Positions 29,051 to 38,031 of a stretch of DNA of 40,261 bases are shown here, piece by piece. Below the pieces are notes generated by a model. It was not told where the DNA came from. It searched no databases and was given only the letters and a program-made list of their open reading frames with translations. A program made the translations under genes and the position numbers. Each line of letters starts with the position of its first letter. Within the stretch, counting starts at the first letter, position 1. Origin of the DNA: Acidobacteriota bacterium (GTDB lineage: Bacteria; Acidobacteriota; Holophagae; Holophagales; Holophagaceae). The stretch spans positions 1-40,261 of the forward strand of contig JAKAMQ010000006.1 of the NCBI GenBank assembly GCA_021812805.1, read 5' to 3'.

Positions 29051-29123
29051 AACCGCAGATGACGCAGATGGCGCAGATGAAAAGCTGCATTCTTCACCCT
29101 CCGATCTGCGTCGTCTGCGGGTT
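29051..29123. repeat. Imperfect palindrome built from GCAGATG-like direct repeats
   Basis: Left arm 29051-29069 (AACCGCAGATGACGCAGAT) pairs with right arm 29103-29123 (begins GATCTGCGTCGTCTGCGG, ends GTT) with one mismatch and one bulge; loop about 33 bases. Within the left side the unit (A/G)(C/G)CGCAGATG recurs three times with a 9-10 base step. It lies between the aldolase and mtnA genes. A similar design of different sequence is at 36271-36370. Confidence 0.7.
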
Positions 29124-31866: not shown

Positions 31867-31974
31867 GAAGGCTCCAGGGGACGTCGCCCGTGAGTGTATC
31901 GGAATGCGTCGCGGTTTCGTGACGCGGCAGGCTTTCCCTTCACCCCTGCGGAACTTTCGTCCATCCTGGGCCCC

Positions 31975-32598
31975 ATGGATGACTGGAAGGGCTGGATCCG
32001 CGAACGGGGGGGCAAGCTGGCCCTGCTGGCGATGACCCTGGTCCTGGGCCTCTGGTGGTGGCAGGGACGCCCTCTGGCCCAGCCTCCGGGCATCCTGGCT
32101 CCCGCGGATCCGACGCAGACGGCGCCGGACTCCACCGCGCCCTGGACCTTCCGCGGCTACCGCATGACGTCCCTGGCCCGCTTTGATGTCCGCGCCCGGA
32201 TCCTCAGCGCCGAACGGTACCGGTTCGACCGCCCCGCCGACCTGTCGCCCGTGGATTTCGCCCTGGGGTGGGGCCCCATGTCGGATTCCCGGGTGCTGGA
32301 CGCCATCACCATCCGACAGGATGGGCGCTGGTACTACTGGAGTTCTTCGCACCTCCCCATCCCGCCCGCCGAGATCATCAGCCACAGCGCCAACATGCAC
32401 ATGATTCCGGCGAACCGCTCCGTCGAGCATCGCCTCCTGGGTGCCCGGGTGGGCCAGATCGTGCATCTGGAAGGGGATCTGGTGCGGGCGGATGGCCCGG
32501 ACGGCTGGCACTGGGTGAGCAGCCTCAGCCGCACCGATACCGGTGACGGCTCCTGCGAAGTGGTCTGGGTCGAACACGCCGACATCAGCGACCGTTGA
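31975..32598 (+). CDS. Conserved membrane-anchored protein of unknown function
   Basis: 207 aa. A basic start and one hydrophobic helix (MDDWKGWIRERGGKLALLAM, then TLVLGLWWWQG) anchor it in the inner membrane, with the rest outside. The soluble part has SPVDFALGWGPMSDSRVLD, YYWSSSHLPIPPAEIISHSA, NMHMIPANRSVEHRLLGARV, GQIVHLEGDLV and SSLSRTDTGDGSCEVVWVE. This set of motifs belongs to a family of hypothetical proteins I have seen in other bacteria without a known role; His and Ser in SHSANMHMIPA look like an active or metal site. ATG at 31975 begins just before the helix. It is divergent from the SPFH gene and ends base-to-base against the convergent CoA-transferase gene. Confidence 0.72.
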   Translation: MDDWKGWIRERGGKLALLAMTLVLGLWWWQGRPLAQPPGILAPADPTQTAPDSTAPWTFRGYRMTSLARFDVRARILSAERYRFDRPADLSPVDFALGWGPMSDSRVLDAITIRQDGRWYYWSSSHLPIPPAEIISHSANMHMIPANRSVEHRLLGARVGQIVHLEGDLVRADGPDGWHWVSSLSRTDTGDGSCEVVWVEHADISDR

Positions 32599-33876
32599 TC
32601 ATTCCTTGCAGGTGGCCATCTCGCACCAGGACCGCTCCAGCCATTCGCGATCGTCGGGGTGGGCGATCTGGATGAGGGCCTGGGCGCGCTCGTGGAGGGT
32701 CTTGCCGTAGAGGTCGGCAATGCCGTACTCGGTGATGACGTAGTGGACGTGCTGGCGGGTGGTGACCACCCCCGCGCCGCGCTTCAGGGTGGGGACGATG
32801 CGGGATTCACCCTTCTTCGTGCGGCTGGGGAGGGCGATGATGGGCTTTCCGCCCGGGGACAGGGAGGCGCCTCGGATGAAATCCATCTGGCCGCCCACGC
32901 CGGAGATGATGCGGTGGCCGACCGAATCCGCGCAGACCTGGCCCGTGAGGTCAATCTCCACGGCGCTGTTGATGGCGGTCACCTTGGGGTTGCGGGCGAT
33001 GATCGTGGGGTTGTTGATGTAGGCGATATCGAGCATCGCCACCTGCGGGTTGTCGTCAATGAAGTCGTAGAGAGCCCGGGTGCCGGTGACGAAGCCCACG
33101 ACGATCTTGCCGGGATGGATCTTCTTCTGGGTGTTGTCCACGACGCCCGTTCGCACGAGGTTGAGCACTCCGTCCGACATCAGTTCGGTGTGGATGCCCA
33201 GGTGGCGGTGGTCGGAAAGGGCCTTCAGCACCGCGTCAGGCACCGCGCCGATACCCATCTGGAGGGTGGCGCCGTCCTCGATGATCTGGGCGGTGTAGCG
33301 CCCGATGGCCTCTTCTTCCGGGCCGGTGGGCGGCTGGGGGAACTCGGGGATAGGGGTGTCCACCTCCACCCAGTGGTGGATGCGGCTGATGTGGATGAAT
33401 CCATCCCCGTGGACCCGGGGCATGCGGGGGTTCACCTGGGCCACGAGGATGGGGGCGGTATCCGCCGCGGCCTTCGCCACATCCACGCTGGTGCCCAGGG
33501 TGCAGAAGCCGTGTTCGTCGGGCGGCGAGACATGGAGCAGGGCCACATCCAGGGGGCGGCGCCCGGACCGGAAGAGGTTGGGGATCTCGGAGAGGAAGCA
33601 GGGCAGGTAGTCCACCCGCGGGGTTCCCACGTAGGGACGCATGTTGTGTCCCACGAAGAGGTTGGCTACCCGGAAATTCGGGGCGTACTCGGGCCGGGCA
33701 TAGGGCACCTGGCCGGTCACATGGATGTGGATGAGTTCGACATCCCGCAGGCGGCCCGCCTGGGCGACCAGAGCATCCACCAGGAAGGAGGGGGTGGCGG
33801 CCGCGCCGTGGATGAAGACCCGCTGCCCGGACTGGATGCAGGCGACGGCGTCAGCGGGGGAGGCATGCCTAGGCAT
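32599..33876 (-). CDS. Acetyl-CoA hydrolase/CoA-transferase family protein
   Basis: 425 aa. It belongs to the family of 4-hydroxybutyrate/butyryl-CoA:acetate CoA-transferases. Visible marks are the catalytic Glu231 in LGIHTELMSDGVLNLV (Glu forms the glutamyl-CoA intermediate in studied members), the oxyanion/CoA motif GVGGQMDF at 326-333, and the C-terminal HYVITEYGIADLYGK. A likely role is moving CoA between acetate and a fermentation acid, or hydrolysis of acyl-CoA. ATG at 33876 is preceded by AAGAGG with good spacing. It is divergent from the phosphotransacylase-butyrate kinase fusion (165-base gap), so the two may share control. Which acid it uses is not readable. Confidence 0.9.
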   Translation of the reverse strand: MPRHASPADAVACIQSGQRVFIHGAAATPSFLVDALVAQAGRLRDVELIHIHVTGQVPYARPEYAPNFRVANLFVGHNMRPYVGTPRVDYLPCFLSEIPNLFRSGRRPLDVALLHVSPPDEHGFCTLGTSVDVAKAAADTAPILVAQVNPRMPRVHGDGFIHISRIHHWVEVDTPIPEFPQPPTGPEEEAIGRYTAQIIEDGATLQMGIGAVPDAVLKALSDHRHLGIHTELMSDGVLNLVRTGVVDNTQKKIHPGKIVVGFVTGTRALYDFIDDNPQVAMLDIAYINNPTIIARNPKVTAINSAVEIDLTGQVCADSVGHRIISGVGGQMDFIRGASLSPGGKPIIALPSRTKKGESRIVPTLKRGAGVVTTRQHVHYVITEYGIADLYGKTLHERAQALIQIAHPDDREWLERSWCEMATCKE

Positions 33877-34041: not shown

Positions 34042-36249
34042 ATGTTTGACATCGAAGCCTCCCTTGACGCCCGGCTGCTGGCCGGCCCCCGGAACCGCCC
34101 CACGGTGGTGTTCCCGGAGGCGCTGGATCCCCGCACCCTTGAGGCGGTCTGCTTCCTGGGGCGCTTCATCCGGCCGGTGTTCCTGGCCGCCGAAACCGAT
34201 GTGCGCGACCTGGCGGACCGGGAGGCAGATCGCCTGGGCCGCGATCGGGTGGAGTACGTCCTCTCCGAGAGCCTGTTCGTGGATCCGGCCTCGCGCCCCG
34301 ACCTTCGCGAGGAATTCGCCCAGGCCTGCCTGGCCTTTGCCCAGGCGGCGGGCCGCTCCATGGACCTGGAGGAGGCCCGGCGCCTGGTTCTGGAACCCGG
34401 CCGCTTCGGCATCTGGGCCGTGAAGCAGGGGCACGCCGACATGGTGGTCGGTGGCGCCACCCACGAGCCGAAGGCCTTCTTCCGGCCCATGGTGGAGCTC
34501 CTCACCCAGCGGAGCGTGGCCTGCGAGGCCGGGGTGTTCGTGCTGCCCGAGTCGCATCCGGAGGATGTCTATCCCAGGAATATCGTTGTCTTCGGGGATG
34601 TGGGCGTGAACGCCACGATGACGCCCCGCACCCTGGCCGAGGTGGCCGTGGGCACCTGCGCCGTGGCGCGGGATCTGATTCCCGAGGAGGTCCTGCCCGA
34701 GATCCGCTGTGCCATGGTGTCCTACTCCAACCGCGGCAGCGACGAGGGGCACTCGCCCGAACTGGTGCGCCGGGCGGCCGAACTGGTGCCGGAGATCCTC
34801 GCGAAACGGATCGCCATGGGCGAGCGCTACCGCAGCATCCACATCCGCGGTGAAGTCAAGGTGAGCGTGGCCCTCTCCCAACGCTCCGCCGACCTGTACC
34901 ACGCGGACGGCATGCCCTGGGAAGGGGCGCCCAACGTCATCGTCTGCCCCAACCTGGACATGGGCAATCTGCTCTACCACCTCTACGCCACGCGCTTTCC
35001 GGAGGCCAGGAAGTTCCCGGTGATGTTCGGCCTGCTGTTCCAGGGGGTGGATCTGGCGATGGACTGCACGCCAGAGGACATCCGCCTGGCGGTGAAGGCC
35101 TCGGTGATGCGCCTGCACGCCTACGGCCACTGGCAGCGGACGCCGAAGGACACCTTCTTCCGCCGCCACCGGGTGCTGGTGCTGAATCCCGGGTCCACCT
35201 CCACCAAGACCTCCATCTTCGAAGGGGACGAGGAGCGGTTCACCGAGGAACTCCAGCACGCGACGGAGGATCTCAAGGCCTTCGAAGGCAGGCCCATCAC
35301 GGATCAGTTCGCCTTCCGCAAGGAGGCCGTGCTGAACTTCCTGGCGGCAAAGGGGCTCACCATGGCGGACATGGATGCCGTGTCCGGCCGCGGCGGCCTG
35401 CTGCGGCCCATCTCCCATGGCACCTGGCGGGTGGGGCCCGTCATGCTGGAGGATCTCCGGAGCGGCGAGCGGGGCGAGCACGCCTCGAATCTCGGCGCGC
35501 TCATCGCAGCGGAGCTGGTCGCGGGCACCGACAAGCCCGCCTACATCGTGGATCCGGTGGTGGTGGACGAGGCCGAGCCCAAGGTCAAGATCTCCGGCCT
35601 GAAGGAACTGCCGCGGCGGGTGATCAGCCACGCCCTCAACCAGATCGCCACGGCCAGGCGCTTCGCCGAGGAACGGGAGACCTTCTACGAGCGGGTGAAT
35701 GTCATCGTGGCGCACCTGGGCGGTGGCATCACCGTGGGCGCCCACCACAGGGGCCGCTACGTGGATGTAAACAATGGGCTGGATGGCGAAGGCCCGTTCT
35801 CCCCCCAGCGCACGGGCACCCTGCCAGCCGGCCAGCTCATCGAGCTGTGCTTCTCGGGCAAGTACACCCAGGCGGAATTGAAAACCCTCAACAAAGGCCG
35901 CGGTGGCCTCATCAACCTGCTCGGCACCTCGGACCTGCGGGAGGTGGAGCGCCGCATCGGGGAAGGCGATGCCGAGGCCCATCTGGTCTTCGACGCCATG
36001 GCCTACCAGATTGCCAAAGGCATCACCGCCCTGGTGCCCGCCTTCGAGGGGGAAGCTGTGGATGCCGTGCTCTTGACGGGCGGATTGGCCCGCTCGCAGA
36101 TGCTGGTGGCCGAGCTGCGCCGGCTCACCTCGGCCCTCGGCTGCCCCGTCCAGATCTATCCCGGCGAAAACGAGATGGCCGCCCTCGCCAAGGGCGTCCT
36201 CCGCGTGCTCTCCGGCCGGGAACCCGCCAAGGACTATCCGCCGCAGTAG
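34042..36249 (+). CDS. Phosphate acyltransferase (Pta/Ptb-like) fused to butyrate kinase
   Basis: 735 aa, two full enzymes in one frame. Residues about 15-365 are a PTA_PTB domain: RPTVVFPEALDPRTLEAVCF, ADMVVGGATHEPKAFFRPMV, AMVSYSNRGSDEGHSPELV and CPNLDMGNLLYHLYA. Residues about 376-730 are a butyrate kinase of the ASKHA fold: VLVLNPGSTSTKTSIFEGDE, VIVAHLGGGITVGAHHRGRY, VDVNNGLDGEGPFSPQRTGT and VLLTGGLARSQ. The Buk motifs (NPGSTSTK, NNGLDGEGPFSPQR) separate it from acetate kinase. Acyl-CoA would be converted to acyl-phosphate and then to acid with ATP. ATG at 34042 with GGAG upstream is preferred over a GTG at 34015. The module is completed by a second, separate Ptb 0.9 kb downstream on the other strand. 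Domain calls are firm; the acid is inferred to be C4 or branched. Confidence 0.9.
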   Translation: MFDIEASLDARLLAGPRNRPTVVFPEALDPRTLEAVCFLGRFIRPVFLAAETDVRDLADREADRLGRDRVEYVLSESLFVDPASRPDLREEFAQACLAFAQAAGRSMDLEEARRLVLEPGRFGIWAVKQGHADMVVGGATHEPKAFFRPMVELLTQRSVACEAGVFVLPESHPEDVYPRNIVVFGDVGVNATMTPRTLAEVAVGTCAVARDLIPEEVLPEIRCAMVSYSNRGSDEGHSPELVRRAAELVPEILAKRIAMGERYRSIHIRGEVKVSVALSQRSADLYHADGMPWEGAPNVIVCPNLDMGNLLYHLYATRFPEARKFPVMFGLLFQGVDLAMDCTPEDIRLAVKASVMRLHAYGHWQRTPKDTFFRRHRVLVLNPGSTSTKTSIFEGDEERFTEELQHATEDLKAFEGRPITDQFAFRKEAVLNFLAAKGLTMADMDAVSGRGGLLRPISHGTWRVGPVMLEDLRSGERGEHASNLGALIAAELVAGTDKPAYIVDPVVVDEAEPKVKISGLKELPRRVISHALNQIATARRFAEERETFYERVNVIVAHLGGGITVGAHHRGRYVDVNNGLDGEGPFSPQRTGTLPAGQLIELCFSGKYTQAELKTLNKGRGGLINLLGTSDLREVERRIGEGDAEAHLVFDAMAYQIAKGITALVPAFEGEAVDAVLLTGGLARSQMLVAELRRLTSALGCPVQIYPGENEMAALAKGVLRVLSGREPAKDYPPQ

Positions 36250-36270
36250 GGTTCAGGAGACGCCGAAAAG

Positions 36271-36370
36271 CGGAACACAGAGGACACAGAAATCCCACAG
36301 AGGACACAGAGAAGAACCTGCATGGCCTTTCTCTGTGTCCTCTGCTGCCCTCTGCGCCCTCTGTGTCCCG
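36271..36370. terminator. Nested long palindrome of ACACAGAGG-type repeats between convergent genes
   Basis: The inner arms CAGAGGACACAGAGAA (36298-36313) and TTCTCTGTGTCCTCTG (36329-36344) pair perfectly with a 15-base loop. The outer arms 36271-36283 and 36358-36370 pair at 12 of 13 positions. Each arm is itself built from short direct repeats (CACAGAGG, GGACACAGA). Position between the stops of the fusion gene and the nitroreductase gene suggests a bidirectional terminator, and a T run (CTTTTT) follows on the + side at 36373-36377. Confidence 0.7.
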
Positions 36371-36376
36371 ATCTTT

Positions 36377-37128: not shown

Positions 37129-38031
37129 TCAGGCCAGCAGGGCCGCCAGGGCGATGGAGCTGAGCTTGGTCTTGGCCGTGTCGCCACGGCTGCTGAGGAC
37201 GCAGGGCACCTTCGCGCCGGCCACCACGGCGGCGATCTCCGCGCCGCCGAGCTTGGTGCCCGCCTTGTAGAAGGTGTTGCCCGCCTCCAGGTTCGGGAAC
37301 AGCAGACAGTCGGCGTCGCCGGCCACGGGTCCGGTCATGCCCTTGATGCGGGCGGATTCGGGATCAAGGGCGCCGTCCAGGGCCATGGGACCGTCCACGA
37401 AGGCACCCTTGATCTGCCCCCGGTCGGCCATCTTCGAAAGCAGCGCCGCCTCGGCGCTGGAGCGGAGCTTGGGCTGCACCGTCTCGGAAGCGGAGAGCAC
37501 GGCCACCTTCGGCGTCTCCACGCCCAGGGCCTTCGCGGTGGCCACGAGGTAGCCGAGAATGGCGACCTTCTCTTTCAGTTCGGGTTCGGGAATCACGGCC
37601 ACATCGCCAGCCACGAGCAGCTTGGGATGGCCCGGGTGCTCCATGACTGTCACGTGGCTGAGGATGGCGCCGGGCTCCAGCAGGCCCTGATCCTTGGCCA
37701 GGATGGCCTTCATGTACTTCTCGGTGCTGAGGAGGCCCTTCATCAGCAGATCAGCCTCCCCGAAGCGGACCATGGCCACCGCCTTGGCGGCGGCTTCCGT
37801 GTCCGTGGCGGCGTGGACCATGCGGAACCGCTGCTTTGGCAGGCCGAGCCCCTGGAGAACCTGGTTCATCACGGGCTCATCACCCACGAGGATGGCTTCC
37901 ACAAGACCCGCCTCCACGGCGGCGTTCACGGCTTCGAGCGTGTGAGCGTCGTTGCCCCAGGCCACCACGAGGCGCTTGCGGGGGCGGTCCTTCACGGCGC
38001 GGAGGAGGTCGTCGAGGCTGTTGATCCGCAT
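37129..38031 (-). CDS. ptb: Phosphate butyryltransferase
   Basis: 300 aa, the usual length of Ptb, which exchanges CoA and phosphate on butyryl (or branched acyl) groups. It starts MRINSLDDLLRAVKDRPRKR. Family blocks: KRLVVAWGNDAHTLEAVNAA, ADLLMKGLLSTEKYMKAIL, LLEPGAILSHVTVMEHPGHP, VAVLSASETVQPKLRSSAEA and GPVAGDADCLLFPNLEAGNTFYK. It is a separate, single-domain enzyme distinct from the N-terminal half of the nearby fusion protein, so the locus has two phosphotransacylases. ATG at 38031 is the natural start; the ribosome-binding site is modest (AGGT). Divergent from the TfoX-like gene by 54 bases. Confidence 0.92.
   Translation of the reverse strand: MRINSLDDLLRAVKDRPRKRLVVAWGNDAHTLEAVNAAVEAGLVEAILVGDEPVMNQVLQGLGLPKQRFRMVHAATDTEAAAKAVAMVRFGEADLLMKGLLSTEKYMKAILAKDQGLLEPGAILSHVTVMEHPGHPKLLVAGDVAVIPEPELKEKVAILGYLVATAKALGVETPKVAVLSASETVQPKLRSSAEAALLSKMADRGQIKGAFVDGPMALDGALDPESARIKGMTGPVAGDADCLLFPNLEAGNTFYKAGTKLGGAEIAAVVAGAKVPCVLSSRGDTAKTKLSSIALAALLA

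Follow-up and report, generated by a model that had tools for sequence, protein, structure and literature searches.

Does a gene that joins a phosphotransacetylase-like (Pta-like) domain to a butyrate kinase (Buk) in a single reading frame encode a bifunctional enzyme, or has one of its halves taken on another role? The gene at issue lies at positions 34,042–36,249 (+ strand) of the window, the whole 40,261-nucleotide stretch of DNA analyzed here, and translates into 735 residues without an internal stop. A preliminary description had read it as a one-chain fusion in which an N-terminal phosphotransacylase passes acyl-phosphate to the kinase, and had named a stop between the domains, or a half that had lost its activity residues, as grounds for rejecting a bifunctional enzyme. 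The fusion itself is genuine: the same frame recurs in many genomes, and no stop separates the domains here or in relatives. The fate of the N-terminal half is a different matter, as described below.

A fused gene conserved in Acidobacteriota

Residues 18–347 (N-half; positions 34,093–35,082, + strand) belong to the PTA_PTB fold family (PF01515, 111 bits vs. a cut-off of 24), while residues 377–730 (C-half; positions 35,170–36,231, + strand) match the butyrate kinase model TIGR02707 at 450.6 bits, over its curated cut-off of 289.1 bits, across model positions 1–350 of 351. The Pfam Acetate_kinase family was matched at residues 539–691, and searches with Pfam and NCBIfam found no malic enzyme catalytic domain in the fused protein. 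The best NCBIfam match of the N-half is pta (TIGR00651) at 106 bits, far under the cut-off of 311, which is a weak test on its own because the separate phosphotransbutyrylase (Ptb) of the window also scores under the cut-off of its own model. Pta structures are the closest solved structures (best E ~4e-23), and NCBIfam matches, structure matches and the tree all agree with the earlier observation that the N-half is nearer to Pta than to the neighboring stand-alone Ptb, although the long branch of the N-half makes its deep position near Pta less secure. Among non-fused proteins, the one that falls closest to the N-half in the tree, at the end of a long branch, is a divergent Pta-like protein encoded by a separate gene and 391 residues in length (locus L091, 2,061–3,236, − strand), which keeps Ser-Arg in its motif (FSRSS) and whose neighbors resemble, by eye, 2-oxoacid:ferredoxin oxidoreductase genes. 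An AlphaFold model of the whole protein, built with 28 close homologues, was too poor for use (mean pLDDT 54.6, pTM 0.37).

The window genome is fragmented (2.9 Mb, 87.8% complete), and its nearest relatives are Geothrix and metagenome-assembled genomes (MAGs) of Holophagaceae and Acidobacteria. Counting that of the window, 27 genomes of the genus contain this frame intact, as do 13 loci from outside the genus; at one further locus it is truncated by the end of a contig. The fused protein is encoded by most members of the genus, and the named isolates that carry it include Geothrix fermentans (e.g. DSM 14018, locus L050), G. rubra and G. oryzisoli; recovery from so many genomes, isolates among them, rules out an assembly artefact. 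Beyond Geothrix, further Holophagaceae encode the protein, and so do, with a patchy distribution, members of at least five more Acidobacteriota families. These searches covered Acidobacteriota; named genomes were scanned with Geothrix-like patterns. A locus in a ‘Candidatus Eisenbacteria’ MAG (L066), truncated where its contig stops, may reflect misbinning.

Among homologues, N-halves are 43% to 94% identical to that of the window, the start methionine at position 34,042 is conserved as MFDIE or a close variant, and all high-scoring end-to-end matches to the N-half sat in frames of at least 735 residues. Both the C-halves (support 100/100) and the N-halves (100/99) form single clades, which points to one fusion and suggests that it is old and was followed by descent, transfer or loss. 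We found no description of a fused Pta-like/butyrate kinase architecture in the open-access literature; it is real, conserved and apparently undescribed.

The N-terminal half lacks the catalytic Ser-Arg pair

We mapped active-site columns on the Pta of M. thermophila (1qzt) after aligning 19 fused N-halves with 9 Pta, 4 MaeB and 19 Ptb sequences, all comparison sets being drawn from the same phylum. The equivalent of Ser309 is Ala or Pro, and that of Arg310 is Met, Gln or Ile, in 19/19 fused N-halves; these positions hold Ser and Arg, respectively, in 9/9 Pta and 19/19 Ptb. In the window protein, alignment with 1qzt and the phylum's Pta, Ptb and MaeB places the degenerate motif DLAMDCTPED (residues 337–346; positions 35,050–35,079, + strand) over DLSRGCSxxD, with Ser replaced by Ala339, Arg by Met340, and Cys342 and Asp346 kept. 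Column alignment likewise places HEPKAFFR (residues 141–148; positions 34,462–34,485, + strand) where Pta has its Ser/Thr-rich acyl-CoA loop (HSSSDTLR in M. thermophila), the last Arg, which corresponds to Arg133, being kept. Across the fused N-halves, the Ser/Thr at Pta position 128 and Arg87 are also lost, the equivalents of Arg133 and Asn279 are kept, and that of the catalytic Asp316 is Asp in all 19.

Mutants of the Treponema Pta TP0094 retain 0.30% activity after Ser-to-Ala, 0.07% after Arg-to-Ala and 14% after Asp-to-Ala substitution (PMC10194888), and the window protein bears the same Ser-to-Ala change as the inactivated mutant. Since the Ser-Arg pair is lost throughout the family and single TP0094 mutants are nearly inactive, the N-half is very probably dead as a phosphotransacylase. 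At the level of sequence, the N-half thus gives one of the grounds named for rejecting a bifunctional enzyme, and with the pair gone and an intact separate Ptb retained, the proposal of a working phosphotransacylase that feeds the attached kinase is not borne out.

The kinase half and a separate Ptb form the likely working pair

The closest solved structure to the C-half is Thermotoga butyrate kinase 2 (1saz, E ~1e-98). Asn382, Arg450, Asp504, His558, Arg590 and Glu709/711 are invariant in all complete family members, and, as conserved residues of the acid-kinase family, they probably have their acetate-kinase roles. The best reading is that the C-half is a working kinase for butyrate or a related short-chain acid, as its conserved motifs would predict.

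Its likely catalytic partner is encoded by the stand-alone ptb gene at positions 37,129–38,031 (− strand), whose best NCBIfam match is phosphate butyryltransferase (303 bits, under the cut-off of 399), whose Ser-Arg pair is intact and which co-occurs with the fusion. A separate Ptb is present in 33 of the 34 fusion genomes tested, its gene mostly adjoining the fused gene. Within the genus it was found in 22/22 tested fusion genomes and 0/8 genomes without the fusion, although these genomes are related and do not represent 30 independent events; outside the genus it was found in 11/12, the exception (G323) being a fragmented genome, and in two of these 11 (G402 and G331) it lies on another contig. 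At eight non-Geothrix loci, ptb follows on the same strand and starts between 4 bases before and ~120 bases after the stop of the fused gene, and it is convergent to the fused gene at three other non-Geothrix loci and in Geothrix, here with or without an intervening nitroreductase gene. The genus genomes yielded no separate butyrate kinase scoring above the cut-off, and unfused sister lineages carry ptb and buk as adjoining separate genes, without the N-half. The working pair thus most likely consists of the separate Ptb and the kinase half of the fused protein. A fusion between Buk and the Ptb of its own pathway is ruled out, as Ptb is a separate gene and sits on a branch distant from the N-half.

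Other neighbors are less constant. A divergently oriented CoA-transferase gene of the butyryl-CoA:acetate type (positions 32,599–33,876, − strand; TIGR03948, 267.6 bits, under the cut-off) adjoins the fusion at only 3 of 34 related loci, in a few close relatives, and is probably outside the functional unit because its place is not conserved across the genus; its product is a possible alternative exit for acyl-CoA. A 234-residue protein without an NCBIfam match (positions 31,894–32,598) is encoded upstream of the fusion at almost every Geothrix locus, and at non-Geothrix loci the neighbors beyond Ptb show no constant third partner. Between the convergent fused and nitroreductase genes, positions 36,266–36,375 contain fully complementary inverted repeats (CAGAGGACACAGAGAA / TTCTCTGTGTCCTCTG) and a longer imperfect pair; the 17-base core of these repeats has three copies in the genome and the repeat may therefore represent either a small dispersed element or a terminator. 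Another inverted repeat between genes lies at positions 29,053–29,120 (CCGCAGATGACGCAGAT), with arms that are 94% complementary.

A conserved cleft suggests a ligand-binding, regulatory N-half

Invariant columns make up 61% of the N-half and 61% of the kinase half, and the median dN/dS values of 0.17 and 0.16, respectively, indicate equal purifying selection. Columns that contact CoA or acetyl-phosphate in Pta are better conserved in the fused family than the rest (mean 0.86 vs. 0.73, permutation p 0.009; p 0.09 by a stricter count, the share at 90% or more), yet their letters differ from those of Pta, and this combination suggests a ligand site retained with altered chemistry. At 20 CoA-contact sites, identity to M. 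thermophila Pta is 32% for fused N-halves and 56% for MaeB. Given that fewer contacts are kept than in MaeB and that the equivalents of Arg87, Gln244, Lys257 and Lys283 (M. thermophila Pta numbering) are replaced, the ligand of the N-half may be something other than a CoA ester.

In MaeB, a Pta domain without catalytic residues binds acetyl-CoA and inhibits the malic enzyme (PMC7902834, PMC12704298). Reasoning from the conserved cleft and from this analogy, we favor, on balance, a working kinase for butyrate, isobutyrate or another short-chain acid whose pseudo-phosphotransacylase N-half binds a ligand and regulates it. The separate Ptb would turn acyl-CoA into acyl-phosphate, which the kinase half would convert to acid and ATP, or the reverse; the N-half would hold its ligand, most likely acyl-CoA, CoA or a related phosphate compound, in the old substrate cleft and would tune kinase activity as the dead Pta domain of MaeB does that of malic enzyme. 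More tentatively, we propose that the Pta fold was made into the ligand-sensing gate of an acid kinase independently of MaeB, so that, in Acidobacteriota, acyl-CoA or a related metabolite would directly govern the formation of ATP from short-chain acyl groups.

The same evidence bears on other accounts of the N-half. Were it a structural adaptor that determines the oligomeric state or provides a dock for the separate Ptb, acyl-phosphate could be handed over inside a Ptb-kinase complex, in keeping with the tight gene pairing of fusion and Ptb and with the tendency of Pta-fold domains to oligomerise (Ptb forms an octamer, PMC9706017, and MaeB a hexamer, PMC7902834). We nevertheless regard this as unlikely, since a pure adaptor has no need of a conserved cleft, the N-half and Ptb lie on distant branches, and the Geothrix genes face each other instead of forming an operon. 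The loss of catalytic residues could also mark a functionless relic of gene fusion, but the invariant columns and dN/dS values largely rule out a decaying domain, and since the two halves are under equally strong purifying selection and the fusion has persisted in several families, we consider this extremely improbable.

A bifunctional enzyme would still result if the N-half had a rebuilt active site and acted as a phosphotransacylase with a different acyl range. The conserved cleft and the invariant Asp316 and Arg133 equivalents are compatible with such an enzyme, and the newly invariant Lys273, Lys324 and SYSxxGSD stretch, which fall in cleft columns or motifs of Pta, could serve to bind phosphate instead. 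Against this stand the absence of both Ser309 and Arg310 from all 19 N-halves, where either change nearly abolishes activity in TP0094 (PMC10194888), and the retention of a Ptb with an intact pair, whose presence and absence within the genus match those of the fusion; we therefore think such activity quite improbable.

If the N-half is a sensor, it would represent a second, independent case of a phosphotransacetylase fold turned regulator of a partner enzyme and, to our knowledge, the first suggested allosteric control on a butyrate kinase. Geothrix isolates such as G. fermentans DSM 14018 make the sensor reading testable, and our results caution against annotating the fused protein as a bifunctional Ptb-Buk.

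Comparison with known systems

The C-half is a full-length member of the butyrate kinase family (TIGR02707; Thermotoga Buk2, 1saz) with conserved motif residues, but known butyrate kinases are stand-alone, whereas this one has a Pta-fold domain of ~370 residues in front. The N-half shares the fold family of Pta (TIGR00651; M. thermophila, 1qzt) and the equivalents of Asp316, Arg133, Asn279 and Tyr282, at ~30% identity to the M. thermophila enzyme, but lacks Ser309-Arg310, Arg87, Ser128 and several CoA contacts. Compared with the ptb-buk operon of clostridia and unfused Acidobacteriota, the pathway pair of Ptb and Buk is the same, but here Buk has an extra domain and the genes are either ordered as fusion then ptb or convergent.

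The closest parallel is MaeB, in which a catalytic domain of central metabolism is likewise joined to a degenerate domain of the Pta fold in which the catalytic Ser is missing; in the four MaeB of this phylum in our alignment, the Ser309 position holds Gln. The two nonetheless differ in catalytic partner, domain order (reversed), clade and residues changed, and the regulation of MaeB has been demonstrated, whereas that of the fused kinase is proposed here. Bdellovibrio MaeB has lost the Ser/Thr and Asp positions (PMC7902834), unlike the fused kinase, in which Ser and Arg are lost and Asp is kept. Common descent of the N-half with the MaeB domain is unsupported, the two falling in separate clades in the tree, and the different patterns of loss therefore indicate that the fused kinase and MaeB are alike in kind, not by descent.
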